A stretch of 31,831 nucleotides of DNA from a virus. The stretch lies in IMG/VR virus record IMGVR_UViG_3300010297_000042, positions 1 through 31,831 of that record. The stretch is one strand, 5' to 3'. Shown piece after piece: positions 2,115-24,100 of this stretch. The stretch's first letter is position 1; every line of letters begins with the position of its first letter. The notes beneath the pieces are model-generated. The model was not told the origin of the DNA. It saw nothing but the letters and a program-made list of their open reading frames with translations, and ran no database searches. Made by a program: the position numbers and the translations under genes.

Positions 2115-4393
2115 TAATATTCTCCGAAGGGATTACTCTCTGTGAAATCTAAAATACCATCTGCTTCGGTTTCGATTTCTTCATTAATATCATAAGATTC
2201 TTCATAACTATTATTATCATATGATTTAAGTATATATGCAGCAGAAGATTCTGATCCTGTAATAACTTCTCCAGCTGAGAATTGTCCATCATTAGATCCA
2301 ACAAACAGATCTATGGGAGGATTATCAGCATTGATATCTCTCCTTATACTTATATCTTTAATTTCTGCAGTGGTGCCAGAAAGTGATCCAGTTATTGTTT
2401 CACTCTTAATATAAGTTCCAAATCCAGTTGTTGATACTCCAGATATGGTTACGTTTGGTGCTGTCGTGTATCCATAACCAGCATTAACTATTTGTAAAGA
2501 ACTTATCGAACCATTACTGATGACTGCTTCTGCAGTCGCTCCTTTTATGTAAAACTTGTTATAATCTTTATTTCCAGAAGTATTTGCTATACTTACAGTA
2601 GGATTAGTTCTATAATAACCAGATCCAACATTAGTTAAAACAATTTGGGTTACAATTCCTTCAGAAGATACTGTTGTTATTCCCGTTGCTGTTGAACTAT
2701 CCAAAGTATTTTTAAAAACGTCTCCAAGAGTTGGAATTGCATCAACAAATGATACAGTCGCTATACCAACACTAACTGGTATGGAAGATATTTCAGTTAT
2801 ACTAATATCATCAATATAACCAACGAAACTATCTAATGAAGAATCTGCAACAGATTCTGCAGCAGTCGCAGCACCAACTTTAAGTATCTCACCTTCTTCA
2901 AATATTTGAGTTGTAGACATAACACCATTAAATAATGTTCCTAGAACACCATTTATACTGATACGAATATCTTCTTGATATGTATCAATTTGAACATAAT
3001 TCCATTGGTCTTCAACTAGTTGCCCTCCTGTAATAGTGGGAGATGTTGTTGAATTGTAAATAATTTCCCCAGCAACTGTTACGGATACTTTATTGTTTTC
3101 TGTATGAAGAATACTTCTGGATGTTGTTCCAAATTCTGATGGATAAATCCAGAACCTTATTGAAATTCCTGTAGTAGATGTATCTATAAAATTTTGTATA
3201 AAACCTATATCACTAACATCTGTTATTGCAGTATGCTCTAGAGAATTATTTCCAAATTTTACTATTGGTGATATTGGAGGATCTGAGAATGTTACTGAAG
3301 GTGGTGTTATTTGTGAATAATACTCGCCACCAGAAGTTAAACTTACAGAAGTGATAATTCCTGCAGAAGAAACACTAGCAATTCCAGATGCTCCATTTCC
3401 TATTGGTGGATCAATGATTACAGTTGGAGTTGTGTAATATCCAAGTCCAGCAGTTGAAATTGACAATAACCTAACACCATCATTGACAACGATAGCTGTT
3501 GCGGCTGCTCCAACACCACTTCCGCCAGATATTGTTACTTCTGGTGGATTTAAAGAACTGTAACCAAAACCTGCATTGGTTATTCTTATTTCTTTTACAG
3601 ATTGAACATTACCAATAGAAGTTGTTATAGCAACGGCCGTTGCATTATCGATAGGATTTCCTGTTGGGGATGCTGATATAGATACTGTTGGTGTAGTGCT
3701 ATAGTTATAACCATCCTCATTTAAAACAATTCTACCAATCATTCCATCAACACCAAGAGTTGCTGTAGCAGTTGCTGAAATCGCAAGATTTTCAAGTCTT
3801 AATGTTGTTATATAACCTTCATCTTTAACGGTATTGTCAATTTCTTCTATGGAAGTATCTATGTCTTCGTTTTCATATTCATATAATTCACAAAGCAATT
3901 CATAGACATAGGTTTTACCCAATTGGTAAAAAGGTTTTTCTGCTTCTACTCTTTTAATTTCAAACAATCTTTCTCCGAGTGGAAAATATATCAAATCACC
4001 CTCTCTTGGTCTTGATGGTAAATTTATGTCGTAATCTGTGATTAAACCACCTTCAACTCCTTCTTGTATAGCATATAAAAATGGAGATATAAATTCTTGA
4101 AATCTTTCTTGTGATATTACCAAATTAATTTCATTCTTGAGTCTCAATCCAAACTTTGTCATCAAATCACTTCCTGGAGCATATCCTTCGTAATTGTCTA
4201 GATATGCTTCAATAATAAAACTATCATCAAATTTGGAGGACTGAACTTCTCTCAAAATATCATCAGTTTTTAAAAATTTTCTAGGAAGATAGTATACATC
4301 AATTCCATAAATTTTTAATTGTTCATTTATTAAATCTTGAATTAAAAACTGCTCTCTAGCAGAACCCTGAAGGAAGAAAGGATTGAGTGTCAT
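2114..4393 (-). CDS. 14: gp14 neck protein, enlarged by beta repeats and a LamG-like domain
   Basis: Residues 1 to about 190 are T4 gp14-like: LINEQLKIYGIDVYYLPRKF, FDDSFIIEAYLDNYEGY, REGDLIYFPLGERLFEI and a following FYQLGKTYVYEL block. The product is 759 aa, about three times T4 gp14 (256 aa). The extra length is an insertion at about 195-700 before a short acidic tail ending in TESNPFGEY. The insertion holds at least six copies of a GxGYxxxPxVxIS motif (near residues 223, 270, 311, 353, 586 and 635). In their middle, at about 375-535, is a concanavalin/LamG-like domain with KFGNNSLE, ISIRFWIYPSEF, WNYVQID, IRISINGVLG and FVGYIDDISI. In T4, gp14 sits on the gp13 ring and connects head to tail. 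The core function is secure; the job of the insertion, perhaps surface binding, is inference. Confidence 0.92.
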   Translation of the reverse strand: MTLNPFFLQGSAREQFLIQDLINEQLKIYGIDVYYLPRKFLKTDDILREVQSSKFDDSFIIEAYLDNYEGYAPGSDLMTKFGLRLKNEINLVISQERFQEFISPFLYAIQEGVEGGLITDYDINLPSRPREGDLIYFPLGERLFEIKRVEAEKPFYQLGKTYVYELLCELYEYENEDIDTSIEEIDNTVKDEGYITTLRLENLAISATATATLGVDGMIGRIVLNEDGYNYSTTPTVSISASPTGNPIDNATAVAITTSIGNVQSVKEIRITNAGFGYSSLNPPEVTISGGSGVGAAATAIVVNDGVRLLSISTAGLGYYTTPTVIIDPPIGNGASGIASVSSAGIITSVSLTSGGEYYSQITPPSVTFSDPPISPIVKFGNNSLEHTAITDVSDIGFIQNFIDTSTTGISIRFWIYPSEFGTTSRSILHTENNKVSVTVAGEIIYNSTTSPTITGGQLVEDQWNYVQIDTYQEDIRISINGVLGTLFNGVMSTTQIFEEGEILKVGAATAAESVADSSLDSFVGYIDDISITEISSIPVSVGIATVSFVDAIPTLGDVFKNTLDSSTATGITTVSSEGIVTQIVLTNVGSGYYRTNPTVSIANTSGNKDYNKFYIKGATAEAVISNGSISSLQIVNAGYGYTTAPNVTISGVSTTGFGTYIKSETITGSLSGTTAEIKDISIRRDINADNPPIDLFVGSNDGQFSAGEVITGSESSAAYILKSYDNNSYEESYDINEEIETEADGILDFTESNPFGEY
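2800..3270 (-). other. LamG/ConA-like domain coding segment inside gp14
   Basis: This stretch encodes residues of roughly 375-535 of gp14. The sequence shows the usual landmarks of a LamG/concanavalin-A-like jelly roll: a KFGNNSLEH opening, an amphipathic strand ISIRFWIYPSEF, then LVEDQWNYVQID, a self-describing strand IRISINGVLG, and the closing FVGYIDDISI. Family members often bind glycans or other ligands, but many phage copies are of unknown specificity. GxGY repeats flank it on both sides, as expected for an inserted decorative module. Boundaries are approximate. Confidence 0.75.
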
Positions 4394-6317: not shown

Positions 6318-6515
6318 TTAATTTTTTTCTAGAAATTTTTTCAGGAGTGATTTTATTTCTTCAATATCATTCTTCATCTGTTCTATTTCGGATTTTTGTA
6401 GTTCTTTTTGATTTTTTATATTCAAGTAATTATTATAGGCAGTGGTGTCACAATTAATTATGGCACCACTTTTCTCATCTCTATAGAGATTTTTTTGTCC
6501 TTCTACTCTTATCAT
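6318..6515 (-). CDS. Small coiled-coil protein, conserved in cyanomyoviruses
   Basis: The 65-aa product has an N-terminal MIRVEGQKNLYRDEKSGAII block and then a charged helix with heptad spacing (EIEQMKNDIEEIKSLLKKFL) that should form a coiled coil. I recognise the MIRVE...LYRDE...AI(I/V)N opening as a small cyanophage protein encoded next to the baseplate genes. Its role is unknown; an oligomerising or assembly factor for the adjacent structural protein is a guess. Its ATG overlaps the stop of the 2365-aa gene by four bases (ATGA), so its synthesis is tied to that giant protein. Confidence 0.8.
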   Translation of the reverse strand: MIRVEGQKNLYRDEKSGAIINCDTTAYNNYLNIKNQKELQKSEIEQMKNDIEEIKSLLKKFLEKN

Positions 6516-9500
6516 GCAAGTGCAATAGCTCTTAGATCTTTAATTCTTGGTGGGTATGCTTGATTAGTTCCCGACATTACAATTTTTATTCTAAAACCAG
6601 TAAATAGATCTAAATTATCTACAGTATATTCATATTCTAAGAATTGATTATCCAAACTTGCAGGTATAAAGACATCCGGTCTGCCATCATTATTTGCTAC
6701 GTCAATAATCTCTAAACCATTAGTAGTAAGTTTGAGATTATTATATCCTGGGAATAATTCAAACTCTTGTTGTATTTCTCCAGAATCAGATCTAATTAAA
6801 CTATAGAGAACTCTAAAATCTGCACTTTCATGTCTATAGGCTGCGAGTATTACTTTAAGTGATGTTGCTGCTTGAGTTAAGTTTATGGTGTTTGAAACAT
6901 AAACTGCTGAATGTGGATCAAAATCTAAGGAATTTACACGATTATCTGTTGAATAATCTGATATTGGACTATTCAGTCTACTCAATCTAAACTCCGTTGT
7001 ACAAGCATCAGTATAAATTATTGGCGATAGATTTTCATCAGAAGTATTCAGTACAACTCCTGTTGTAAGGGACTTGTTTCTTGGTAGAGATGAGAGTTTG
7101 TTAGTTTCATTTACACTAGAAGCAACCATTCTCACAGAATTTAATCTGTTAACTTCATTCAATTGTACAGTTTCAAATCCATTATCTATAAATGGTGTTT
7201 CACTGCCATTAACACTTCTACCAGTCACAGTTCTTACTGATGCACTAACATTTGTCAAAGAACTAGGTGTAAGAACATCATAATATGGAATTATTTCATT
7301 AAATTGAATATTTTCTGAAGCGGTACAGTTTAATCCTCCTAGGAATTGCAAGTCATTAAATGCTAATTTTGTTGTTCCTGGAGTTGCACCATCACTCGAT
7401 CTATCCAAACCATTTTTAGACATATCAATTTCTATATTATATCCATCTATAGTGTTTTGTAACGTACTGACAGTGTGTTCCACACCATTTATTCTTCTTA
7501 AGGAAACACCATTCAATTCATACTTATATACTCTACTATTAACTGCGTGTGGTTGTGATTTTGTAGAGTCTTTAGATCTTCCAGAACCAGATATACTAAG
7601 AGTTCCAGATCCAACAGAATTATATTCAATAATTTCATCACCTATCAAAACATATCCAGGATAAGATCCAGAAACTCTTTGACCTTCGAATGTTTCAAAC
7701 CCAGTAGTGCTTGCAACACTTATAGTTGATGTTTCATCAATAGATAGTGCAACATCCAAAGTTGTGGGAGCAGTATTTGGTTCAATATTGTTAATTACTA
7801 CACTATCCAGTCCAGAATACATTCCATGATCAAAATGATTCACACCAATATAAGTTCCAGAATTAAGTCCTGTGCCTTCTACCGTTCTATCAGTGATAGT
7901 TGTAGATGCCAGTGAAACGATACTTCCACTATCATTATAGTAACTTAAAGCAGCACCAACTTGGAATGTTTTGGATGCTCCTTTTTCTCCTTGAACTCCA
8001 GAAAGATACAGAGTATCTAATCCAGAAATAGAAGCAATTGTAAATGTAGCATCTCTTCCTAAAGTAGTAACTACGCCTACAACATCACCGACTTGATATC
8101 CATTTCCAACTGAAGTTGTTGCTGCGATTCCAGTAACTGCTCCACTAGATACATTTAGACTCAATCTCAGTCCAGAACCGTTTCCAACGATAGTGGTTGT
8201 TTCTAAATCAGAAATGGTTCCATCGGGATAATTTGTACCATTCGTAGTAATGTTCAATTGAACTACAGAACTTCCTGTTTCTACAATATAACCATATCCA
8301 TTAGATCCTGAAATTTTTCTTCCAATTGTTAATTCTGAAGTAGCAATGGAATTTGTTATTGTTGTTATTCCAAGTGTCAAAGTCTTTGGCAAAGTTGTTA
8401 ATGGATTATTCCCAAGTGTTTCAACGTAACCATTACTCTCATCTAGAGTTGGATTGTAGAAAAATGCTGTGCCAGAATTTGAAGTAAATTTTGCTTTATA
8501 TAACTTAAATTTCAAATCCTGATATTGATTTGCAGTCCATATTGAACCATTTTGAGATTTAAACAGACTTCCAAGGGCAAATTGTTTAGAATAAATTACA
8601 GACTCTGAATTTGGCAAAGATTGTGTATTTACAGTTTTTTCACCCATTTCAGCAATCCACAATTCATATTCATCTGTTGTTTCTGCAACAGCAACAACAG
8701 CATATTCTTCTCCAGGAGCAAGATATATTGGATAATCAAAAGTAACTGTTGTTGCTACTTCTCCTGTTGTTGAGGTATTTACTTGAGATGGATTCAGTGT
8801 TACTGGATTTCCAATTATCGTTCTAGTTGGAGTTCCCAATTCTACCGTTCTAATTTCAATTCTTACTGGATCATTTCCTGAAGGTTTTGTTGCAAAAAAT
8901 AGATCTACGGCAGTTAAAAATACTCCATTTTCATCATCGTTGGAACCATTAGCATCTGGTGCTTCTATATTACCACCTACACTGAATGATTGTGCTAAAG
9001 GATCATAGAAGTTTGTAGTAACTCTTGTTGTTTGACGCTGACGCACCTCAAATCTTCCAGTTGATCTATACGAAACTTCTGCCGTTGATTGTAATTTACT
9101 TCCTGGAAGAGGTGCAGCATTTGTGGAACTGTTTGTAAGTTTATAAGTTTTGGTTCCTGTTGTAATCCTTACACTAGGTGCTGGTATTGTATTTGGATCT
9201 TTAAGGAAGAAAGTCCCAAGCAAATCTCCATAATTATCACTTATAAGACGAAGATCTTTTACATAAGCAACTGCTCCACTTGTTTGTCCAACTAACTTAG
9301 TTCCAACATCAACCCATCCATAATACCTTCCTTGTGCTTCCTCAGCAAGTGCAAGTGTATCAACATTTATTACTTTTGAAGATTGACTGTAAGTAGAAGA
9401 TAAATTTTCTGATTTAACATATGGGTTAATGTTGAATGTTGTTTTTGGAACTTTATGTGATCCGGTCTTATGATTTCCTGTTGCAGTTCTAAATCTAATT

Positions 9501-12500
9501 GTTGGAAGACCATTAGAACCATATCCAATTACAGTTTCACCAACTACAAATGATCCAGTAGATCCATATGTTGCAAGTGTATCATCTGTTGCAATTTCAA
9601 TAAGTTTGGGTACAAAATCTACACTACCATTTCCATCAAAAAACTGATAAAATCTTGTAAGGGGTTTTAAATTATTGGCAAAAAATTGTGTATTTCTGGA
9701 ACGCATATAAGATTCTCTTCCAGAAGAGAGAATAACATCACGAGAAGTAACTGTAACTCTTGTTTGACCCTGGAGACTTGCATTGGCTACTCGCCTAGTT
9801 TCTGCAGAGAAAGTTGCATCTCTTCTAATTGTTCTTAACCAACTATCACTGGATGGAGATAACTTCACAAATCCATTATATGAAATAACATGGAAAGGAT
9901 TTACATTTTCCACTTTTGTTGCTAGTGGCTGTTGAATCCACCCAACACTATCATATTTTAATGTGATTGCACTTCCAGTTTTTTGAACATTTGAATCCAA
10001 AAGTTCAAAATTATCAGAAAAATCTAAATTTTGATCACTAATTATTTCTGAAGGAGCAATTTTACTCTTTAATGTATTTCTACTAGTAATTGATTGTAAT
10101 TCGCTATTCTCCTCATCCACTTGAATTGATGATACGTCTATATTGATGAAAGAATTATCTTTAAAGTCATCTGCAAAAAATCCTGTTTTAAATCTATCGT
10201 TTCCTTCAACATCTTGAACTTGCAAAGTTGATGTGTTAAGTTCTAATAATGAGAGTGAAGTTATTCTTTCTAGAGTTTCAATCCTATCTTCAAGTTTTCC
10301 AATATCCCTCATAGTATATCTTCTATTGTCAACTAATTTTACAACTGCATCATTTGGATTATAGAGATATGCTGGTAAAGTAATAGTGGCCAAATCCATC
10401 AACTGATTTGGATTCAAATTTGTAGGTTCTTTTGGTCTTCTTTCCGATATACCTTTTTGTATAACAAAATTGCCAAATGCATCCAATAAAATTTTATCTA
10501 TTCTTGGCAAGTAATAAGTATATCCTATTAAAGATTCTTCCTTTGGTTTTAAAATTAATTTTGGCAAAGTTCCAAAGGATCTTGAATCAAAATCAAATGG
10601 TGATTTATTTGTAACAGTAAATTGAGAAACTCTTGGTCTAAAATCTAGAGTGTCGGATGCTCTTATTTTTCTTGGACCAATTTGTGGTATATCTTGAGCA
10701 AATCTATTTTTATCATAACTGAGAACAGTGTAAACATCACCATTATCAGAAGATGGAACTGTATAATGATCAAATACAATTTTTAGTCTCTTTGATGGGA
10801 TTGGAGTATTTAAATTTCTCACTATTTTTGAATAGTCATAATATTGATCTTTTTGCCCCTTGTCCAGAGAGAAAGTTCCTGTTATATCTTTATAATTTCC
10901 AGGTGTGATTGATTGAATATTTGCAGACAAATTGCTTTCTTCAAATTCTACTAATTGACCTGTAATAAATCTACTAGAATTTAAGAAAACAACTTCTAAC
11001 GTAAAGGCTGTTGGTTTTGATACTACTCTGGCAACAGTATTATTAGAAGAACTAAGAATATTTTCACCTATAATTGAATTTGATACAATAGATGAATCAG
11101 CAAACTGAAGTTTATCTAAAACTGGTGCTGAAGCAGTGGTTGATTCATAAATTGCAATTACTTTAACTACATCTGGCCATGTTAAACAAATTTCTTCATC
11201 TTGAACTCTAAGACCATAATTAGCATTATATGTTAATCCGTCGTTAATGGAATTATTAGCATTAGAACCGGATTGCTCATACTTAGAATAAATGACATCT
11301 AATGTCGAACTTCTAGTATATTCTTTTACCTTACTTTGAATTCCGTTTTTAATCAAAGTGGTATTTACAATAGAATTAGTAGTTCCACCAGCAAGACCTT
11401 TTATTGTAACTTGGTTATTGGAAAGACTGAAAGAATCTGATGTTACTGTCCCAATTCCACCATTGGAGTAATGTACGGAATATCTTTCTTCATCAAAACC
11501 TTTAAAGAAAGCACTTGTTATTCCAGAAATTTCTGATAATGTTACGGTGACGGATCCAGATGAAGTGTCTACAAGACTGGAGTGTTCTGATATTTCCAAA
11601 GTAGAACCAGAAAGATTTACTGATTCAATATTAGAATCTGGAAGTTCTGCATAAAGATATCCTTTTTCTTGATTTCTTAAAATTGGTACTCCCAATTGAA
11701 TTGATGAATATGTACCATTAGCAACTGTACCTTGATAAACACCAGGAACATCTGTCAATGATGTTATTGTTAATGATGTTGTATTTACCGCTGTTACTCT
11801 ATTGAAAGTTTCATCTCCAGTCCCAGTTTGATATCTAATAATATCATTAACTTTTACACCAACAAAAGACTTTCCTGGACTTTCTAAAGTATTCCCTCCA
11901 CTAATTGTTCCACCAACTATACCATTCGGTAAACTAAGTCTATTCAAAAATGAATCTGCCACAAAATCCGATTGTCCAAATGGAGATACTTGTTTTGCCG
12001 ATTTAATGTCTCTGGTTCCATATACTGTTATGGAAGTTGCAGTAGCAGAAACTTCAATGCCATTAACAATAAGTTGCTCACCTACAGAGAAATTTCCAGA
12101 AGTCTGTCTAATACTTACAGAATTACCACTTCCAGCACTCACCGCATATCCACTAGCACCACTATTTTTTCCTTTTATGTAAGATGAGGTTGCTAAACTT
12201 AAACCAGATACGGGAGTGTTTAATGTTAATGTAGTATATGTTTGAACATCATAGAGATATAAATCCCAATTTGTAGAATCTCCAGAATAAGCGGTTCCTG
12301 ATAAATTGAATGTATAAACTCTCGCATCACCAATTTTAGTTCCTGCTCCAGCAAATTGATTATAAAGATCTACTGCTTCCTTTTGCTTTGGGGTTCCAGT
12401 TACATTATTTACTATTAGACGGTTTCCCATCTCAAAAGGAACGTTCGCAGTAGGTATAGTTTCAGTATCTCTTGGTTTTTCTACGTCTAATATTGTTCCT

Positions 12501-13609
12501 ACGGTTTTTTCTATGTTATAACCACCAACGTATGCTTCTCCAGGAGAAACTTTTACACACATTAAATTATCAGATGGGTCATTTTGTTGATCGGTGAATT
12601 GTGTATCAAAAAATAATCCATCATTACCAAGTTTATCATTTAAAGAATTATGAAGTGAAACATCAAAATTTTCTAATGCATAATGTCCAGATTCTTCATA
12701 AGTTCTTTCTGCAAAATAATCACCGAGTCTGGAAAGTTCTGATTTGGATTCTATCCTTTTAATTTTACCATCTGATACTCTGAGAAGTTCTATAAAATCA
12801 GTATCATTGGTGTCTGAAATTAATTTTTTTGTTAAAGTAAGATTTATTTTTAATCTATCTGCTCCGGGAGCAGCATAATTAGAAAATCCTTTAGCATTAT
12901 CATATAATGAAGAATCGTCCTTTGCGTTTATAATTAATTCTTCAACTTTTAATCCAACTCTATATGATGGAGTATTAGTATAGTAATCTAAAATTAATGT
13001 TTGTTTAGAAACTTCTGCAAAAAATCCCCTAACAAAGTAAATCCCTTCGCCAATAGATGCTGCAGATCCAATGGAAGTTGCATTTGATTGTATTAGTGAT
13101 GCAAATGGCGTTCCTGCAGTAATTGTTGTATTTCCATATACAACATTCTCATCGCAAATTAATGTTTCTCCATCTTCGAACACATCAAAGTTGAAATTAT
13201 TATTAGAATCTTTATATTTTACATAAATTGTTACATCCTCAACTTCCGAAGAATCCTCAGGAAAAGCAACATAATCAATAGTTGCAGTTGATCCTGAAGT
13301 TTGTCCTGTTATTTTTTTACCTATAAAATTTTCAATGTATAATGATATTTCTATGCCAAAATTGGAAGAATTTAACTTTACTGCATAAAATTGTCCATCA
13401 TAAGTAATATTTCCTGGACTAACTACCGTTCCATCTTTAAAAATATAACTTCCAAATGACTGGACTTGATTTTGTATAATCGATTGTAAAGTCGTCAGTT
13501 CTCTAGCTTGAACTGGAAAACCTGGTTTGAATAAGACCTTGTAAAAATTTTTTTGTGAATCAAAATCATCAAAATATGGATTGACGTTTAAATTTGTTTT
13601 TTGTGCCAT
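6512..13609 (-). CDS. DUF4815-type giant baseplate/tail structural protein (2365 aa)
   Basis: The N-terminus (VNPYFDDFDSQKNFYKVLF, then PGFPVQARELTTLQSIIQ) is the DUF4815 signature found in T4-like cyanophage structural proteins. Further conserved blocks are a NRRYTMRDIGKLEDRIETLE segment near residue 1110, DPLAQSFSVGG near 1535 followed by an LFFATKPSGNDPVRIEIR strand, GSLFKSQNGSIWTANQYQDL near 1695, and the C-terminal MSGTNQAYPPRIKDLRAIAL. Between them are recurring modules: several (I/L)xGxxSGAxA motifs (KITGQTSGSTA, KLVGQTSGAVA), two GxGY/GTNY motifs near 1790 and 1830, and one IGDEIIEY...SGSGRS...HAV module at about 1960-2045. No peptidase or lyase motif is seen. It occupies the gp9-gp12 position between gp8 and gp13, so a peripheral baseplate or tail-pin role is likely; a specific equivalence to gp10 is not shown here. 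Confidence 0.85.
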   Translation of the reverse strand: MAQKTNLNVNPYFDDFDSQKNFYKVLFKPGFPVQARELTTLQSIIQNQVQSFGSYIFKDGTVVSPGNITYDGQFYAVKLNSSNFGIEISLYIENFIGKKITGQTSGSTATIDYVAFPEDSSEVEDVTIYVKYKDSNNNFNFDVFEDGETLICDENVVYGNTTITAGTPFASLIQSNATSIGSAASIGEGIYFVRGFFAEVSKQTLILDYYTNTPSYRVGLKVEELIINAKDDSSLYDNAKGFSNYAAPGADRLKINLTLTKKLISDTNDTDFIELLRVSDGKIKRIESKSELSRLGDYFAERTYEESGHYALENFDVSLHNSLNDKLGNDGLFFDTQFTDQQNDPSDNLMCVKVSPGEAYVGGYNIEKTVGTILDVEKPRDTETIPTANVPFEMGNRLIVNNVTGTPKQKEAVDLYNQFAGAGTKIGDARVYTFNLSGTAYSGDSTNWDLYLYDVQTYTTLTLNTPVSGLSLATSSYIKGKNSGASGYAVSAGSGNSVSIRQTSGNFSVGEQLIVNGIEVSATATSITVYGTRDIKSAKQVSPFGQSDFVADSFLNRLSLPNGIVGGTISGGNTLESPGKSFVGVKVNDIIRYQTGTGDETFNRVTAVNTTSLTITSLTDVPGVYQGTVANGTYSSIQLGVPILRNQEKGYLYAELPDSNIESVNLSGSTLEISEHSSLVDTSSGSVTVTLSEISGITSAFFKGFDEERYSVHYSNGGIGTVTSDSFSLSNNQVTIKGLAGGTTNSIVNTTLIKNGIQSKVKEYTRSSTLDVIYSKYEQSGSNANNSINDGLTYNANYGLRVQDEEICLTWPDVVKVIAIYESTTASAPVLDKLQFADSSIVSNSIIGENILSSSNNTVARVVSKPTAFTLEVVFLNSSRFITGQLVEFEESNLSANIQSITPGNYKDITGTFSLDKGQKDQYYDYSKIVRNLNTPIPSKRLKIVFDHYTVPSSDNGDVYTVLSYDKNRFAQDIPQIGPRKIRASDTLDFRPRVSQFTVTNKSPFDFDSRSFGTLPKLILKPKEESLIGYTYYLPRIDKILLDAFGNFVIQKGISERRPKEPTNLNPNQLMDLATITLPAYLYNPNDAVVKLVDNRRYTMRDIGKLEDRIETLERITSLSLLELNTSTLQVQDVEGNDRFKTGFFADDFKDNSFINIDVSSIQVDEENSELQSITSRNTLKSKIAPSEIISDQNLDFSDNFELLDSNVQKTGSAITLKYDSVGWIQQPLATKVENVNPFHVISYNGFVKLSPSSDSWLRTIRRDATFSAETRRVANASLQGQTRVTVTSRDVILSSGRESYMRSRNTQFFANNLKPLTRFYQFFDGNGSVDFVPKLIEIATDDTLATYGSTGSFVVGETVIGYGSNGLPTIRFRTATGNHKTGSHKVPKTTFNINPYVKSENLSSTYSQSSKVINVDTLALAEEAQGRYYGWVDVGTKLVGQTSGAVAYVKDLRLISDNYGDLLGTFFLKDPNTIPAPSVRITTGTKTYKLTNSSTNAAPLPGSKLQSTAEVSYRSTGRFEVRQRQTTRVTTNFYDPLAQSFSVGGNIEAPDANGSNDDENGVFLTAVDLFFATKPSGNDPVRIEIRTVELGTPTRTIIGNPVTLNPSQVNTSTTGEVATTVTFDYPIYLAPGEEYAVVAVAETTDEYELWIAEMGEKTVNTQSLPNSESVIYSKQFALGSLFKSQNGSIWTANQYQDLKFKLYKAKFTSNSGTAFFYNPTLDESNGYVETLGNNPLTTLPKTLTLGITTITNSIATSELTIGRKISGSNGYGYIVETGSSVVQLNITTNGTNYPDGTISDLETTTIVGNGSGLRLSLNVSSGAVTGIAATTSVGNGYQVGDVVGVVTTLGRDATFTIASISGLDTLYLSGVQGEKGASKTFQVGAALSYYNDSGSIVSLASTTITDRTVEGTGLNSGTYIGVNHFDHGMYSGLDSVVINNIEPNTAPTTLDVALSIDETSTISVASTTGFETFEGQRVSGSYPGYVLIGDEIIEYNSVGSGTLSISGSGRSKDSTKSQPHAVNSRVYKYELNGVSLRRINGVEHTVSTLQNTIDGYNIEIDMSKNGLDRSSDGATPGTTKLAFNDLQFLGGLNCTASENIQFNEIIPYYDVLTPSSLTNVSASVRTVTGRSVNGSETPFIDNGFETVQLNEVNRLNSVRMVASSVNETNKLSSLPRNKSLTTGVVLNTSDENLSPIIYTDACTTEFRLSRLNSPISDYSTDNRVNSLDFDPHSAVYVSNTINLTQAATSLKVILAAYRHESADFRVLYSLIRSDSGEIQQEFELFPGYNNLKLTTNGLEIIDVANNDGRPDVFIPASLDNQFLEYEYTVDNLDLFTGFRIKIVMSGTNQAYPPRIKDLRAIALA

Positions 13610-15172: not shown

Positions 15173-18100
15173 CTAAATTTCATATATCGCCCCAGTGGAT
15201 CTTAGGGTAGTGTCTCCATTTCTTCTCATCAAGATTGGATATGTCGCCAATCCAGAAACAACTCTTCCAGTTACTCCAATGGAAATTGGATTTGATGCCC
15301 TCGAAAGATCTATTGTATTGGATAATCTGCCCCAAGAATATTTTCCAACAATTGTCCCACTAGTATCAATTCCAGAAAGATTTGAATTTGAATCAACAAG
15401 ACAAGTGATAATACCAACAGTTCCTAATGTAGTTGATACTCTATCAACAATGTATATGTTGTCAAGATAAACTGTACCTATTCCAACAACTTCGGAATCA
15501 TTAGAAATAATAGAAGTAACTCCAGAACCAACTCGGGTGTCCGTAATATAAATTGGATATCCAGAAACTAAGTCAGTAACATCTTCTAAAGTGAATTCAA
15601 TTCCTAAAGAAGGTGTACTTGTAGACGCTATTCCAGTAATATTGTTAGATGTTCCGTTAATAAATCTAAAGTTTGATATAAATTCTACATAATTTACTTG
15701 AGACGTAGATCCGACTCCAACATTAACCTGATCAACAATCAAAGCATTAAATGGATCTACGTTTGGAGATTCATATTCAAATAAGGTAATATCGTCAACA
15801 AATATTTCTTTATCCGTTGTTGAAACATCACTTATAATTTTTGCTGATGGAACTATGAGGGATTTCAAAGAATCTCTAGATTTAGAAACTATTTCACCAT
15901 TAATTTTTTTATCAGTTTTTTGCTTAGTCCATGATAAAGTCCTCCAAGTTACATCATCTACGTTCGATTTAGTGTATATTTCAGTTTCAAATCTGTCTGA
16001 GAAAGACAAATCAGTAACAGTTCTAGAATCTTGTCCATCCTTCCTAACAACATCTCCTTTTTCAATAGTTGTAATTATATCACTAGATATAACGTCGGCA
16101 TCTAAACCTTTGTAGAAGTAAATTGATATTATATCGTCTTTTAGTGGTGGTTTTGTAAATTGAATTGATGTTCCACCACCGAAGATGTATGATTTTCCTG
16201 GTTCTTGTAAAATACCATTGATGAATATTATGAGATTGTTTGTAAGATCAAAACCAGCATCTATAGGTGTTTCAAAACTCCTAGTTTCTCCATTATAAAA
16301 TAGTGGGAAAGTAACTCTCTCACCGTCCTGGTAATCTGATATAGAGTCTACAAAATCCAATTTTCCAAAATCCCAAGATGAAAACTTATCTGAGTACGTA
16401 TCCACTACAGTAATCTCAAAATCATGTATTGGTGATGATAGTGAAGAATCAGTTACTAATCCTATTGGTTTAAATACATCCCCTCTTTGGAAACTATATC
16501 CAGACTTAGTGATATCAAACTCACTTACTCCAAAGTAACTACTAAGTCCTATAGGAGCAACTTTAAGACTTATCGAAAGTCCTATTCCTGTAGTAGTTGT
16601 TGATCCAATACCGAGTCTTGAAATACCAACAACAGGTAAATTTTCATATGATGGTTCAGACACAAAAACTGTTGGATTTGTGTATCCTGTTCCACCACTA
16701 ACAAGGTTGAAAGATAGAGTTCCTCCAACACCAATAGAAGCGGTTATTGATGCTGGTGTTCCAGAATGACCTTCTTCGTAAATACTAACACCGATAGAAG
16801 TTAAACCATTGTATCCAGATCCTGGTGATATAGTAGTTATTCCTGTGATAGTTCCAGATCCAACTGTGGCAGTCAAAGATGCCCCTACAAGTGGTGCAAA
16901 CCCAAGACCAGGGGTAGAACCATATGAGACGATAATACCACCTCTTGGAGTCTCATTTATATTAATATCATTTTCTGAAGAATAATAAACAACCGGATCA
17001 GAATCTGGTTCTGTTATTCCAGAAAATACTACAGTTGTTATTCCAGGATATGGAGATGTTATTTCTTCTACACTAAAGTTTCCAAAAGGATTATTTTTTG
17101 TAGATGGTTGCTGGAATATTCCATTAATTAAAATTAACCCATTGGATCCCTCTGTGCCAATTCCAGAAGTATTTGCTCCACCAACTTTAAGTGTAAAAGT
17201 TCTTCCAATTCCATTAAATTCATTCGAAACATCATCATAAATTTTATTATTAGTATAATCAGATCTCAAAAATACTCTAGCATTAAATGTAGATGTTTCA
17301 TAATCCAAATTCGCTGGTGTTTTATCAATTTGAGGATTTCCTCTTGGTGGATTTGTGAAATTAATTTGATTGTCTACAATATTAAATGCTCCTCTGTAAA
17401 TATCAACAACTGTTGATGATGAATGAGATTCTGCAGAAGAACCAACAAAACCTCTTTCAGTTTGAACAAGGTTAAAAGTACCAAAGTTTGTTATTGGTCC
17501 AGATGATGAAGTTCCCAATCCAACATTAACTACATTTGCAAATTCATCATCTATTTTTAAAATATCAGCAGGTCTAATAGAAGATATTCCAGAAACTTCA
17601 AAAAATGTTGTTCCAGATCCAATTGAATTTGTCAGTTGATGACTAAATCCAGAAAAACTTAATGGATGTTGAATTAAATCATCTATAACAACTATTGTTT
17701 TACTATTTTTTTCATACATTTCAAATTGATGAATATTTCCACCACCCAAATCATCAAATGTAACTGGGGTAGAACTACCACTAACTGTAGATATTTGGAA
17801 ACTATCTTCACTGGAAACGATAGCAAATACTCTAGATGGAAGAAGTCCAGTTATAGATCCATCATTGTAAGTCATTGCTGTTGTTGCTAATCCAACAATA
17901 GAAGACTTAGGTGTATAAATCAACTCTTCATTGTTTCTGAAAAAGTGATTTTTTATATTAAAAGTCCCTGTATTTGGAGTTAAAACACTCGAATTTTGTG
18001 GATTAAATACTTTTTTGAATATTTGAACTTTATTTGATAATAATTCAAATTTAGTTTTATTAATTCTGTCTCCATTAATTGCATCATAAAATGCAAGATC

Positions 18101-21100
18101 TACAATTTGTTTTAAATCTCCATATTCTAAAGGCAATGGATCATTAATAGCATCAATTTCATCATAGAAAGATTGAGTAAACGCTGTTAATTGTATATCA
18201 TAGGAAGCATATTCTGGATCTGCAGTAAAGGTTAGATCGAATGTTGATGCCGAATTGTCTGCACCAAATGTTCCAATTCCAAGGGCACCATCAAATGTAG
18301 AAATTCCACTTACAGATAATAAAGCAGATTGTTGAATGTATGCATCAAAATCATCATGAATAATCATTACTTGATGTATAGCCTTTGTAGATCCAATACT
18401 AACTTCTACCAAAGATTTTGCGGAATTGAACTTATTCTTATCTAAAGAAACTAAAGCAGTCGTTCCTGTGCCAGTAACAGAGTAATTCGACTGGTAAATG
18501 ACACTCCTTTCAGATTCGTCAAATTGATCTTCACTCTTAAATCTATAAGTATTTCCAACTCCAATGATGTTTGTAGAGCCAAATCCAACTATATTAGATT
18601 TGATTCTGTTAAGAGATGCTTCACTTGTATTTGTATAATTTAATGATAATATTCCTCCAGATATATTGGAACTAAATGATCCTATAAAATTATTCGACAA
18701 ACTAAAAGTTTGGAATTCGGAGTCAATATAGTACTCCGATAAAAATGTATTTGTACCATCATGAGTTAAATATATTTCGACAAAGTTTATATTACCAACA
18801 GTAGAATCAATTACTTGAATATTTGCATATAATGATTCAAAGTTATTTGAATCTAAACTTACAATAGATGTTGTGACTCCAGGTGTTGCTATACCAATTG
18901 AACTAATCAAATCAACAAATCCTAAAGAAGTTGATCCAATTCCAGCAGAAGAAGATGTAAATTCTGTTCTGATTATTTTTAAATCATAATTAGTGTCATA
19001 TGGATCTACTGGTGTAAATGCAAAGTAAGAATCTTCAAACTCATCAGTATAAATGCTATAAGATCCATATTCTTGATCGGAATTAAAGACGTTGCCTTTT
19101 TGAACTATAAAACTATTCGTTCCATCATTTAAAATAACTATTTCGGTTAATTGTATTTCACTAAAATCTTCGCTAGAAACTCTAATAATGTAATTGTAAT
19201 AATCTGAATTAGAGTCTAATTTAAGTAGATTTGTAAATTCATTGGGAGAATCTTCAAAATATGAAAATTGATTGCTAATGTCATCGACAGTCAAAACTTT
19301 TGTCGCAACACTATTGAAGAAGAAGGAATCAACAAGTCTCTTATTTTGAAGTTGTATAATTTTTGATGATCCCTCTATAACGTTATAATCTCTAACAAAA
19401 TCATAATTGTTTATAGTATCAACACGTTTTTCTTCTATAACATTATATAAAGATATACTAACATTATCCGATCCAACTCCAGCAAAGGAAACTTCTTTTT
19501 CAATCTGAGTGTCAGCAAAATTCTTTGTCCCACTTATATGAAGATTGCTAAAAACTGGAGACTCTAATACATTGTACTCTTTACTGCTTTTTACTGTATA
19601 TGATAGATTTTGATAATAATCATTATCTGAAGTAACTTGATAATCTGAGTTTAATTCTCCAATATTATCATTCCACCCTAACTGGGTTATTGATGAATAA
19701 CTGATATCAAAAACACCATTGTTTTCTATTATTGACTGGATTGACAATATTGATCCACTTTGTGCTCCTACAAGTGTATCACCCACCTTTAAAGTGTATG
19801 AGCCACTATTAGTCACTTTCAAATAATAACCGTCAAAACTATTAAGTACTAATCCTATATCAGTTCCATCACTCAAAGTTAGTCTTTCACCTATCAAAAA
19901 AGTCGATTTTTCGGTGTTTATTTTAAAGGTGGGATAATCATCCTTATCAATCAAAATTCCAGAACCTTCTTGGATTGTTTTTGCTATACCAGTATTTGTA
20001 GTTAATCCACTAACGTTAATAGTTACTAGGTCATATGGACTAGATGTAACATACGAATCTACTGTTAAGAATGTATATCCATAATCTTCGGAGTTGAATC
20101 CAGAACCGTCTTCATTCTGTTTTTGAATACCCTCTATAAAAACTTGATCTCCGGGATTAAAATAGTACTCTTGTGATGGTTTTGTAACTGAACATGTAAA
20201 TATTCCAGTCGATGATGAATCAACCCTTTGGATTGTAATTCCATTGCCATTATTGACAGTTACTAATTTGATTGTTGAATCTGGTATACCTTTTGGTTCA
20301 TCTACAACATTTACAAATTGAATAGAACCAGAATTCATCTCCAATTCAAAAACTCCATAATTTATTAATTTCCCAGTCTGTTCATTTACAATTAATACAT
20401 CTGGAATAGAGAAATATCCAGTTCCACCATCTAAAACGTCAACAGATTTTATAGTATTGGAATCTTTGGTTAATATAATTGGAGAGATATTTGCTGATGG
20501 TTTTAAAGTTGGATCTGATGGATATGCAAATTGATCGTTTTTTATATCGATCTCTTTCAGCGATCCTATGGTTTTTGATTTTGGTACTACATTGGCAAAT
20601 AAACCTTCGTTTGTGGTTATATTTGATAATGATGGTAATTTCTTATATCCAACTCCACCAGAAAGAATGTTTATCTTGTTTATAGAACCTGTAGAATTTG
20701 TTGAAGATGTTGTATATTTCAGTACATTACAGTCATTTTTATTATATTCTGTTCTTTCTGGATTATTTTTTAAAACTATATCAAAAGTTGTAAGTCCAAT
20801 TGAAACAACATTATATTGACCATTATAATAACTATTATCAAATAGTAATTCCGAATAATTTTCAACTTCTTTGTCTGATGTAGATATGTATCCAGATTTT
20901 TCTAATGCATAATAAAGTTTTTGAGGGATGTTTAAATCATAAGAAATTGTAAGGGCAGTTCCAACTTTAGAAATGTTAAATCCCGATGTGGAACCAGTCG
21001 AAACAAATTCGTTTTTAAATTCATTATCAAAATAAACTTTAAAATTATATCCCGAAACAGAGGAATCTGACAAATCAAATGCTACATTGTTATTTTTTAC

Positions 21101-24100
21101 AATGTATAATTGTGGATTTATTTTTGATATTGATTGTGTCACACCACCTGTACTTCCTATTCCTATTACAGTTGGTGGGGAAGTTTTAGAATCAATATAT
21201 GTTTGACACAATTTAATATTATTTTCATCTAGTTTAAAGATGAAAAATTCTAAATCATCAGTATTTAAACCATCAGGAATGACATCAGAAGAATATTTTA
21301 CTTTATCTCCTGTTTCTAATCCATGATTTACTAAATTTATTGTATTGGTATTGGTGTTTATACCTGTAGAACTAAATCCTATTGGGTTAATTAGAATTTT
21401 TTCTGTTGCAGAATCTCTCAAGACCCTGATTGCCGTTGAAGTTCCTATTCCTACAGATAAGTTCGGAGTAACCGTAAGTGTAACAGAATCGCCAACACTC
21501 ATTCCATGATAAGTCGAAACTGAAACTGTAGATTTTATTCTAGATACACTTCCTGTTATCTGATTATAAGAAGATTCTAAGAGATATAAATCATTATCCA
21601 AATTTGTTGCATAATGGAAAAATAATTCAGATGAATCTACTGCCGTTTTTAATCCTATCAGATCTTTTCCTTTGTTTACAACAAATAAATTTGATGGAAG
21701 ACCACCAGGAATAAGATTAATCCCATCAGTTGAAATTGAAATATTATTTCCAGGATTAGTATAAACTATCTGTTGATTATTTGTGAAAGGATGATTTTTT
21801 AAATATATTGATTTTGAAGGAACGCTTATAGATTCTAGAGTTGATCCAAAATAAAACTGGTTAGAAGTTGATAGTCCAACTATTGTACCAAACCCAACAG
21901 ATTCTTGAGCATTAAAATATACTTTATCATTAATAGTAGAATCAAAATAATCTACAAATTTTGAAACTATAATATTGTCAGGTAAAAATGTGACAGTCGA
22001 ATTTGCTGTGTGAGATGTTCCTGTTAAACCTCTTTCTACTCTAAGTACATTTTTTTCTTCGTATATATTCAATACTTTCAAATTTTCGGTGCCTATACCG
22101 ATACTACTTCCAATAGATAAGTTGGAGGGGATATTAGAAACATAAATTTCGGTTCCACCAATACTTGTTGCACTATCAACATTAGAAATTAATTTAGTAT
22201 TATTTGATAAAACTTTTATTTCGTGAAGTCCATTCAATGATGAAATACTGGAAGATAGTCCAGAAATATAAACATAGTCACGATCATTTAGATTATGATT
22301 TGGACTGATTTTTATTTTAACACCATTATTGTAATTCCATGTAAAAATGGCATTATCATATGAAAGAGTATCCGTAACTATATTAACAATTTCTTTTCCA
22401 TCGATAGATGATACTTTTGCATTTAATCCACCACCAGTTTCATCATTATTGAAAACCAAAGAATCACCAACTTTATATCCAGTTCCACCAGATATAATTT
22501 CAAAATCATCAACAGAACCAGAATTTACAGATCTAGCAACAATTCTCTGTTTTAAAATTTCATCAATTTCTACAATATAATCATATCCTGCACCAAGATC
22601 AGATACTTTATATGGGAAAGTATTTCTTAAAAGATTAGAAGACTTGAAATCATATGATTGATTTAAAGTTACATTTTCTTCTAAAGTTTTTGATTTGTAG
22701 TCATTTCCTATAAAATATGGGAATACTGGATCTCCAGAAGAATCGATACAAGCAACGTAAGCATAAACTCCATTTGGAAATTCTTTTGTCTTCGTAAATC
22801 TGCCATTTTTATCATCAAGGTCACCATTATTTGTAAACTGATAATCTTCTACGAAGAATCCACCACCAAAACCTGATGGTCTATCAAAAATGTTTGATGT
22901 ATTAACCTGATATCCAGATGAAATTAATTTTATGGTAGAAGTTTCATCTTCTGGATCCGAATAACCAAAAGGTCCATATATTGGATTTCCATCATATGCC
23001 CATCCAATAATACCCGACACTTTTGGACTTGCTGCATTTGGTAGACTTTCTCCAAACGATGTTCTTACTTTATCAAAGTACCCTGATACTGTGTATTTTA
23101 ATTTGTTATTAGATTTTTGTAATATCTCTGTTCCTAATTTATTTACATTGTTTACAGTTAAAGATCTTACTTTCGCATCAAATACTGCGTCAGATCCAGC
23201 GGAGCGAACAGCAATTTTTGTAGAAGTAGAATATCCTATCCCTGGATTTATTATTTGAACATCACTAATAATACCATTTGTAATAATAGGTCTTAAATTG
23301 GCTCCAGTTCCGGCACCAGTATTATCAACTACTACCAAATCTGGAACTGAATAATACTCACTTCCACCAGATTCAATTTGAACGGTGTCAATTTGACCAT
23401 TAACTATAAATGGAACTATATAAGCATCTTTTCCAGATTTTATTGATATAGATGGGGACTTCTCATAATTTATAATTGTACTTCCATAACCTGTCCCACC
23501 GTTATAAATGTATAAATCTACAATACTACCTCTTACTTTTGGAGTACATACTAACTCCTCATAAACTTGTGTATCTGTTGAAAATCCCACGGGGTTATAT
23601 TTAACAGATACTGTTATATCAGGGTATTTAAAATATTGATAACCAGAACCAGTATTAGAAAATTTAATATAATTCTTTCTATCGTAATTTGAGGTATTTG
23701 TTCCACCAATACCGGCATCACAAATTTTAAATGTATTTTCATCTACCTTCAATACAAAATACTGTTTATCCGTAGAAATTCCAGTTATTGGTGCAGTTTC
23801 GTAGTCATATTCTACTAAATCTCTATCATTAAATCCATGATTTTCAAAGATAAATGAATCAGTTATTGTTGAAATTCCTGATTGAGAAAGAATTAATTTT
23901 CTATTGGTGAAAGTGCCACCATCTATTACTTTTATTTCGGATAGTGTATTTTTAAAATCAATTGTTCTAAATTTATGGATTCCATTTGTTCCTGTAGAAA
24001 AACCAATTGCATTTCCCAAATTATAATCTGAAATAGTTTCAAATAGTGAAATTGTGGTGTTATTCTCGACTCTAACAAAATAGGAATTATTATTAAGTAA

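Follow-up and report, generated by a model that had tools for sequence, protein, structure and literature searches.

The gp14 neck protein encoded by a cyanophage genome fragment was found to be a head-closure protein of the T4 type that carries an extra Laminin_G_3 (LamG) domain, and the presence of this domain in gp14 proved to be a trait of at least two separate cyanophage lineages, most cyanophage gp14 proteins having none. The fragment, called the window hereafter, is the whole stretch of 31,831 nucleotides that was analysed (IMG/VR record IMGVR_UViG_3300010297_000042).

The original prediction, made from the letters of the DNA alone, had named the protein gp14, a component of the neck or connector, and this identification was borne out by profiles, structures and gene neighbours. 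The PF11649 profile matched over the core (E=1.3e-26; 94 bits vs. a cut-off of 25), phrog_460 ("head closure Hc2") matched at 1.8e-131, and the T4 gp14 structures in the PDB matched at E=2e-21. It is the first ~190 residues that place gp14 in the T4 neck protein family; profile alignment set this core against residues 27-182 of T4 gp14, and Foldseek paired it with the T4 gp14 structure 9lu7 (E=3.9e-7). A gp13-like gene lies on one side of gp14 and a gp15-like gene on the other, with a gp16-like gene also nearby (Table 1). A second IMG/VR contig is almost the same as the window (99.96% over 7.3 kb) and five more contigs present the same gp14 architecture, which argues against an assembly artefact.

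Table 1. Features of the gp14 locus, in window coordinates.
Feature	Position	Strand	Basis
gp15 tail sheath stabiliser / terminator, 266 aa	1314..2114	minus	PF16724 1.7e-89
gp14 neck / head-closure (Hc2) gene, 759 aa	2114..4393	minus	PF11649, phrog_460, T4 gp14 in PDB
Conserved gp14 C-terminal region, residues ~656-759, ending LDFTESNPFGEY	2117..2428	minus	gp14 alignment
C-side GxGY repeats, residues ~570-655 (motifs 590, 639)	2429..2686	minus	motif scan
~290-aa insert (repeat-LamG-repeat), approximate extent	2543..3412	minus	comparison with L088, L089
Laminin_G_3 (ConA-like) domain, residues ~377-537	2783..3265	minus	Pfam, AlphaFold model, structure matches
N-side GxGY beta repeats, residues ~196-368 (motifs 228, 275, 316, 355)	3290..3808	minus	motif scan
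T4-like gp14 core, residues 1-190 (helix, beta-barrel, stopper loop)	3824..4393	minus	profile alignment, Foldseek
gp13 neck protein, head-tail adaptor Ad2, 278 aa	4396..5232	minus	phrog_211 2.8e-49

Several other genes of the window, all on the minus strand, were recorded in passing. Between the gp6- and gp8-like genes, positions 15173-26728 encode a protein of 3851 aa in which residues 1234-1328 form a YHYH domain (PF14240, 7.7e-23), a domain predicted to be a tail-associated metal-dependent hydrolase (PMC7824862). Downstream of the gp8-like gene, a 2365-aa protein (6512-13609) contains DUF4815 (PF16075, 1.5e-59; phrog_358). A 222-aa protein at 29327-29995 matches phrog_3704 "ferredoxin" at 1e-111, yet has no Pfam match. 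The gp15 proteins of S-SSM7, S-CAM9, and Sf-FS3 (L004, L005, and L006) are ~360 aa long and possess a C-terminal extension that the 266-aa gp15 of the window lacks.

All five motifs by which the extra domain had been noticed (KFGNNSLE, FWIYPSEF, WNYVQID, INGVLG, and YIDDISI) are present in the gp14 reading frame, and the interval proposed for it, 2800-3270, was accurate, KFGNNSLE starting at residue 379 (~3259) and GYIDDISI running to ~2801. The excised domain matched Pfam Laminin_G_3 (PF13385) at E=1.6e-6 with 28.8 bits, above the cut-off of 27.6, and a six-frame search of the window gave 28.4 bits (same cut-off) at 2798-3181. With the entire 759-aa protein the score was 23.4, under the cut-off, which would favour the reading that the domain is not LamG, or the reading frame not gp14. 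That reading is highly improbable given the excised and six-frame scores, the homology to T4 gp14, and the match of the family to 49 of 49 related aligned domains; the entire gp14 of Sf-FS3 scored 31.2. An AlphaFold model built on the 49-domain alignment reached a pLDDT of 82.1 and a pTM of 0.81, and Foldseek returned for it laminin LG4-5, agrin, and neurexin at ~2e-6. Superposition by VIA-align gave a Z of 16.1 with agrin G2 (3pve; rmsd 2.3 over 140 residues) and 15.9 with the N-terminal lectin-like region (CBM40-type) of the NanB sialidase. The LamG/ConA fold that had been proposed was thus recovered by AlphaFold, Foldseek, and VIA-align alike, and the agrin match together with the T4 gp14 homology effectively refutes the contrary reading. 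In the BFVD, a viral protein of 762 aa came first (E=8.7e-12), ahead of other phage LamG proteins. Foldseek also returned the binding domains of clostridial neurotoxins; this likeness was rejected as a clue to function, as it reflects the common ConA-like jelly roll and has no functional meaning here. The GC content of the domain (0.32, vs. 0.33 for the window) gave no sign of foreign origin.

As had also been predicted, GxGY repeats were found on both sides of LamG. Residues 200-330, modelled at a pLDDT of ~90 in a full-length prediction of gp14, fall among them, and GxGY-like repeats occur as well in the baseplate and tail PHROGs 701, 708, and 5342. A Foldseek search with the full-length model returned T4 gp14 only, for the core; the GxGY blocks found no clear match, a result that does not demonstrate a new fold. 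In the close relatives L088 and L089, with cores 90% and 86% identical to that of the window, respectively, LamG is absent from gp14, and the L089 protein has 470 aa vs. 759 aa in the window. The ends of the ~290-aa insert so recognized are ambiguous because its flanking repeats resemble each other. The conserved C-terminal region includes an NPFG motif that is invariant across 45 aligned gp14s, and its end in the window protein bears a loose likeness to the T4 gp14 end, ESSPFDNDFMD.

Comparison with the gp14 of related cyanophages revealed that LamG recurs. Related domains were retrieved from IMG/VR with a domain profile, and 80 of 80 (from 124 found) lie inside gp14. Among the 2322 records with a gp14 core in the phage collection, clear relatives of the window domain were confined to S-SSM7, S-SSM6a, and Sf-FS3; the genomes of S-SSM7 and Sf-FS3 each contain a single Laminin_G_3 match, which is the gp14 domain. 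Most of the complete gp14s retrieved by their core are 457-496 aa long and have no LamG. On the gp14-core tree the carriers form two separate lineages, and the well-supported branches need at least two changes, counting gains and losses alike. With relatives of 86-90% identical core doing without the domain and two separate lineages carrying it, LamG is, on the evidence of these sequences, dispensable. A third lineage (L167, L170-L179) has a different gp14 insert of ~190 aa in a similar place, its complete gp14s being 1021-1109 aa long, and in L176-L179 a further repeat-like insertion of ~88 aa lies within this insert. The L167 insert appeared LamG-like by eye, and the searches gave weak hints of this at most (Laminin_G_2 E=0.11; hhalign probability 1.4%; no useful PDB match). 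Such occupation of a similar place by another insert, itself interrupted in some relatives, would be in keeping with LamG being a passive passenger cassette, recombined in between the GxGY repeats and tolerated by an exposed arm, and the same may be said of the bracketing of the LamG insert by mutually similar repeats and of the wide variation in repeat number and gp14 length among relatives.

In the T4 gp14 hexamer, the arm on gp15 is made up of residues 178-256 (PMC12270204). The LamG insert comes after the T4-like core and before the C-terminus, where T4 has this arm, and because this is the stretch that in T4 forms the gp15-binding arm the domain most likely lies on the outside of the neck; from its place in gp14, LamG is probably displayed outward. 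It is unlikely that six extra cassettes of ~290 aa (~30 kDa) each would fit within the DNA channel. The full-length AlphaFold model comprised the core and GxGY blocks and left LamG unplaced at a pLDDT of about 25-32, because most of the aligned gp14s are without the domain. T4 gp14 (256 aa) has no such domain.

The analysis showed that the domain exists, which fold it has, where in gp14 it lies, that it recurs, and that close relatives lack it; beyond this, a mechanism may be proposed. The gp14 protein would keep its T4 neck function, forming a hexameric stopper ring that joins gp13 to gp15, and the C-terminal arm, already lengthened by GxGY repeats, would in certain cyanophage lineages have taken in the Laminin_G_3 domain. 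Six LamG domains, a number taken over from T4, might then stand around the neck exterior, if outward placement holds. The likeliest use of the domain would be as an accessory, non-essential module for weak binding, its target probably being a host-surface glycan or protein, in a role analogous to that of the decoration domains of other phages. Among phage proteins, LamG-fold domains have been reported in tail fibres as well as elsewhere in the virion (PMC7824862). Host-side binding as the use of this putative module is plausible, though somewhat short of probable.

The selection acting on the domain bears on each of these readings. When the window is compared with L010/L013, identity is 93% in the core and 47% in LamG; dN/dS is 0.40-0.45 for LamG and 0.05-0.07 for the core, with dS somewhat higher in the domain (1.2-1.3 vs. 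0.8-1.0). When the window was set against its nearest relatives, variation in strands vs. loops picked out no single face of the LamG domain. Within the S-SSM7 lineage (64 sequences), mean identity is 0.908 for LamG and 0.897 for the core, and dN/dS in a sample of that lineage is 0.084 for LamG, 0.056 for the core, and 0.20-0.24 for the repeats; the loci were chosen with LamG-derived patterns, which favours conservation, so that conservation in this lineage may be overstated. LamG thus changes fast in the lineage of the window, whereas in that of S-SSM7 it is conserved to the same degree as the core, and since the two point opposite ways selection does not settle its function. The fast change was counted in favour of host binding. 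The conservation in the S-SSM7 lineage is unlike that of a typical host-range adhesin and counts against it, as does the observation that the neck fibre of cyanophage A-1(L) bears at its tip a carbohydrate-binding module that did not bind the host (PMC10966104). The raised dN/dS in the window's lineage would also suit a passive cassette, but the intact fold, the strong purifying selection in the S-SSM7 lineage, and the retention of LamG in two lineages speak against mere tolerance, and this explanation is considered unlikely.

That LamG instead binds another part of the virion, clamping the neck to gp15, sheath, or capsid, or holding the tail fibres up, would be in keeping with a domain that in the S-SSM7 lineage is conserved as strongly as the core and more strongly than the repeats beside it. 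The stopper decoration proteins of phage 812, thought to reinforce the neck (PMC12886913), were also counted in its favour, and fibritin was not found in five cyanophage relatives, part of the fibritin-binding region being absent from cyanophage gp13. However, LamG is dispensed with by close relatives whose core is almost the same, gp13 and gp15 of the window show no matching change, and in the lineage of the window the domain evolves rapidly. Contact within the virion is rated as doubtful, and a role in a fibritin-less phage like that of whiskers or neck decoration proteins elsewhere is regarded as equally so.

Whisker binding, which the original prediction had offered beside host binding, was not supported. 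The window phage being a fragment, fibritin (wac) was sought in five related cyanophage records, both by its C-terminal domain (PF07921) and by wac-like sequence, and no match was found in S-SKS1, S-SSM7, S-CAM9, Sf-FS3, or AG-345-L05, while the T4 control matched. T4 wac matches 1428 phage records, the ten commonest names among which include no cyanophage. By alignment, cyanophage gp13 proteins, that of the window included, are without a T4 gp13 stretch lying within domain III, the fibritin-binding domain (PMC12270204). Since the relatives have no detectable fibritin, binding of whiskers by LamG is unlikely. A review described cyanomyoviruses as being without wac, yet mentioned an unpublished phage from St Kilda with whiskers (PMC2984593); that this phage could be S-SKS1 is a guess from the phage name. 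It is conceivable, if rather doubtful, that fibritin-less T4-like cyanophages built their neck decoration into the stopper, the beta-repeat arms of gp14 serving as a modular slot with a predicted binding role at the neck that T4 does not have. Such a slot, a similarly tentative notion, would be filled by LamG in two lineages and by another insert in a third.

The study of phage adhesion has usually centred on the tail tip. A lectin-type domain on the genome-retaining stopper ring would, if true, give marine viruses a second interaction surface at the neck, an idea that can be tested directly in phages already in culture (S-SSM7, S-SSM6a, and Sf-FS3); if LamG is passive, gp14 would still be marked as a tolerant site for domain exchange. 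No description of LamG in a neck protein was found in the open-access papers searched. As LamG-type domains in phage virion proteins (PMC7824862) and gp14 as a neck protein are both known, only their combination appears to be undescribed.

With T4 gp14 (PF11649, Hc2; PDB 9mkb, 9lu4-9lu7), the window protein has in common a homologous core, to T4 residue ~182, and the gene order 13-14-15-16; it differs in size (759 vs. 256 aa) and in the C-terminal arm, which is replaced or extended by the GxGY repeats, LamG, and the conserved tail. The gp14s of S-SSM7, S-SSM6a, and Sf-FS3 are, like that of the window, ~760 aa long with Laminin_G_3 among GxGY repeats, but their LamG is 25-30% identical to the window domain, lies ~80 residues earlier in gp14, and is strongly conserved within what is a separate lineage on the core tree. 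S-SKS1, the nearest named cultured relative by tblastn, shares the core, GxGY repeats, and C-terminal tail; its gp14 is without LamG, and LamG-type domains occur in three other of its proteins. Nine Laminin_G_3 matches were recorded in S-SKS1 (HQ633071.1, 3355-9398), in three adjoining hypothetical proteins and none in gp14. Agrin G2, neurexin LNS2, and the sialidase CBM40 share the beta-sandwich fold of the window domain (Z 15-16) at 10-15% identity. The T4 fibritin (wac) whiskers, the A-1(L) neck fibres, and the neck decoration proteins of phage 812 likewise decorate the outside of the neck, as gp14 is predicted to do, but these are separate proteins, whereas the LamG domain of the window is built into the stopper protein itself.
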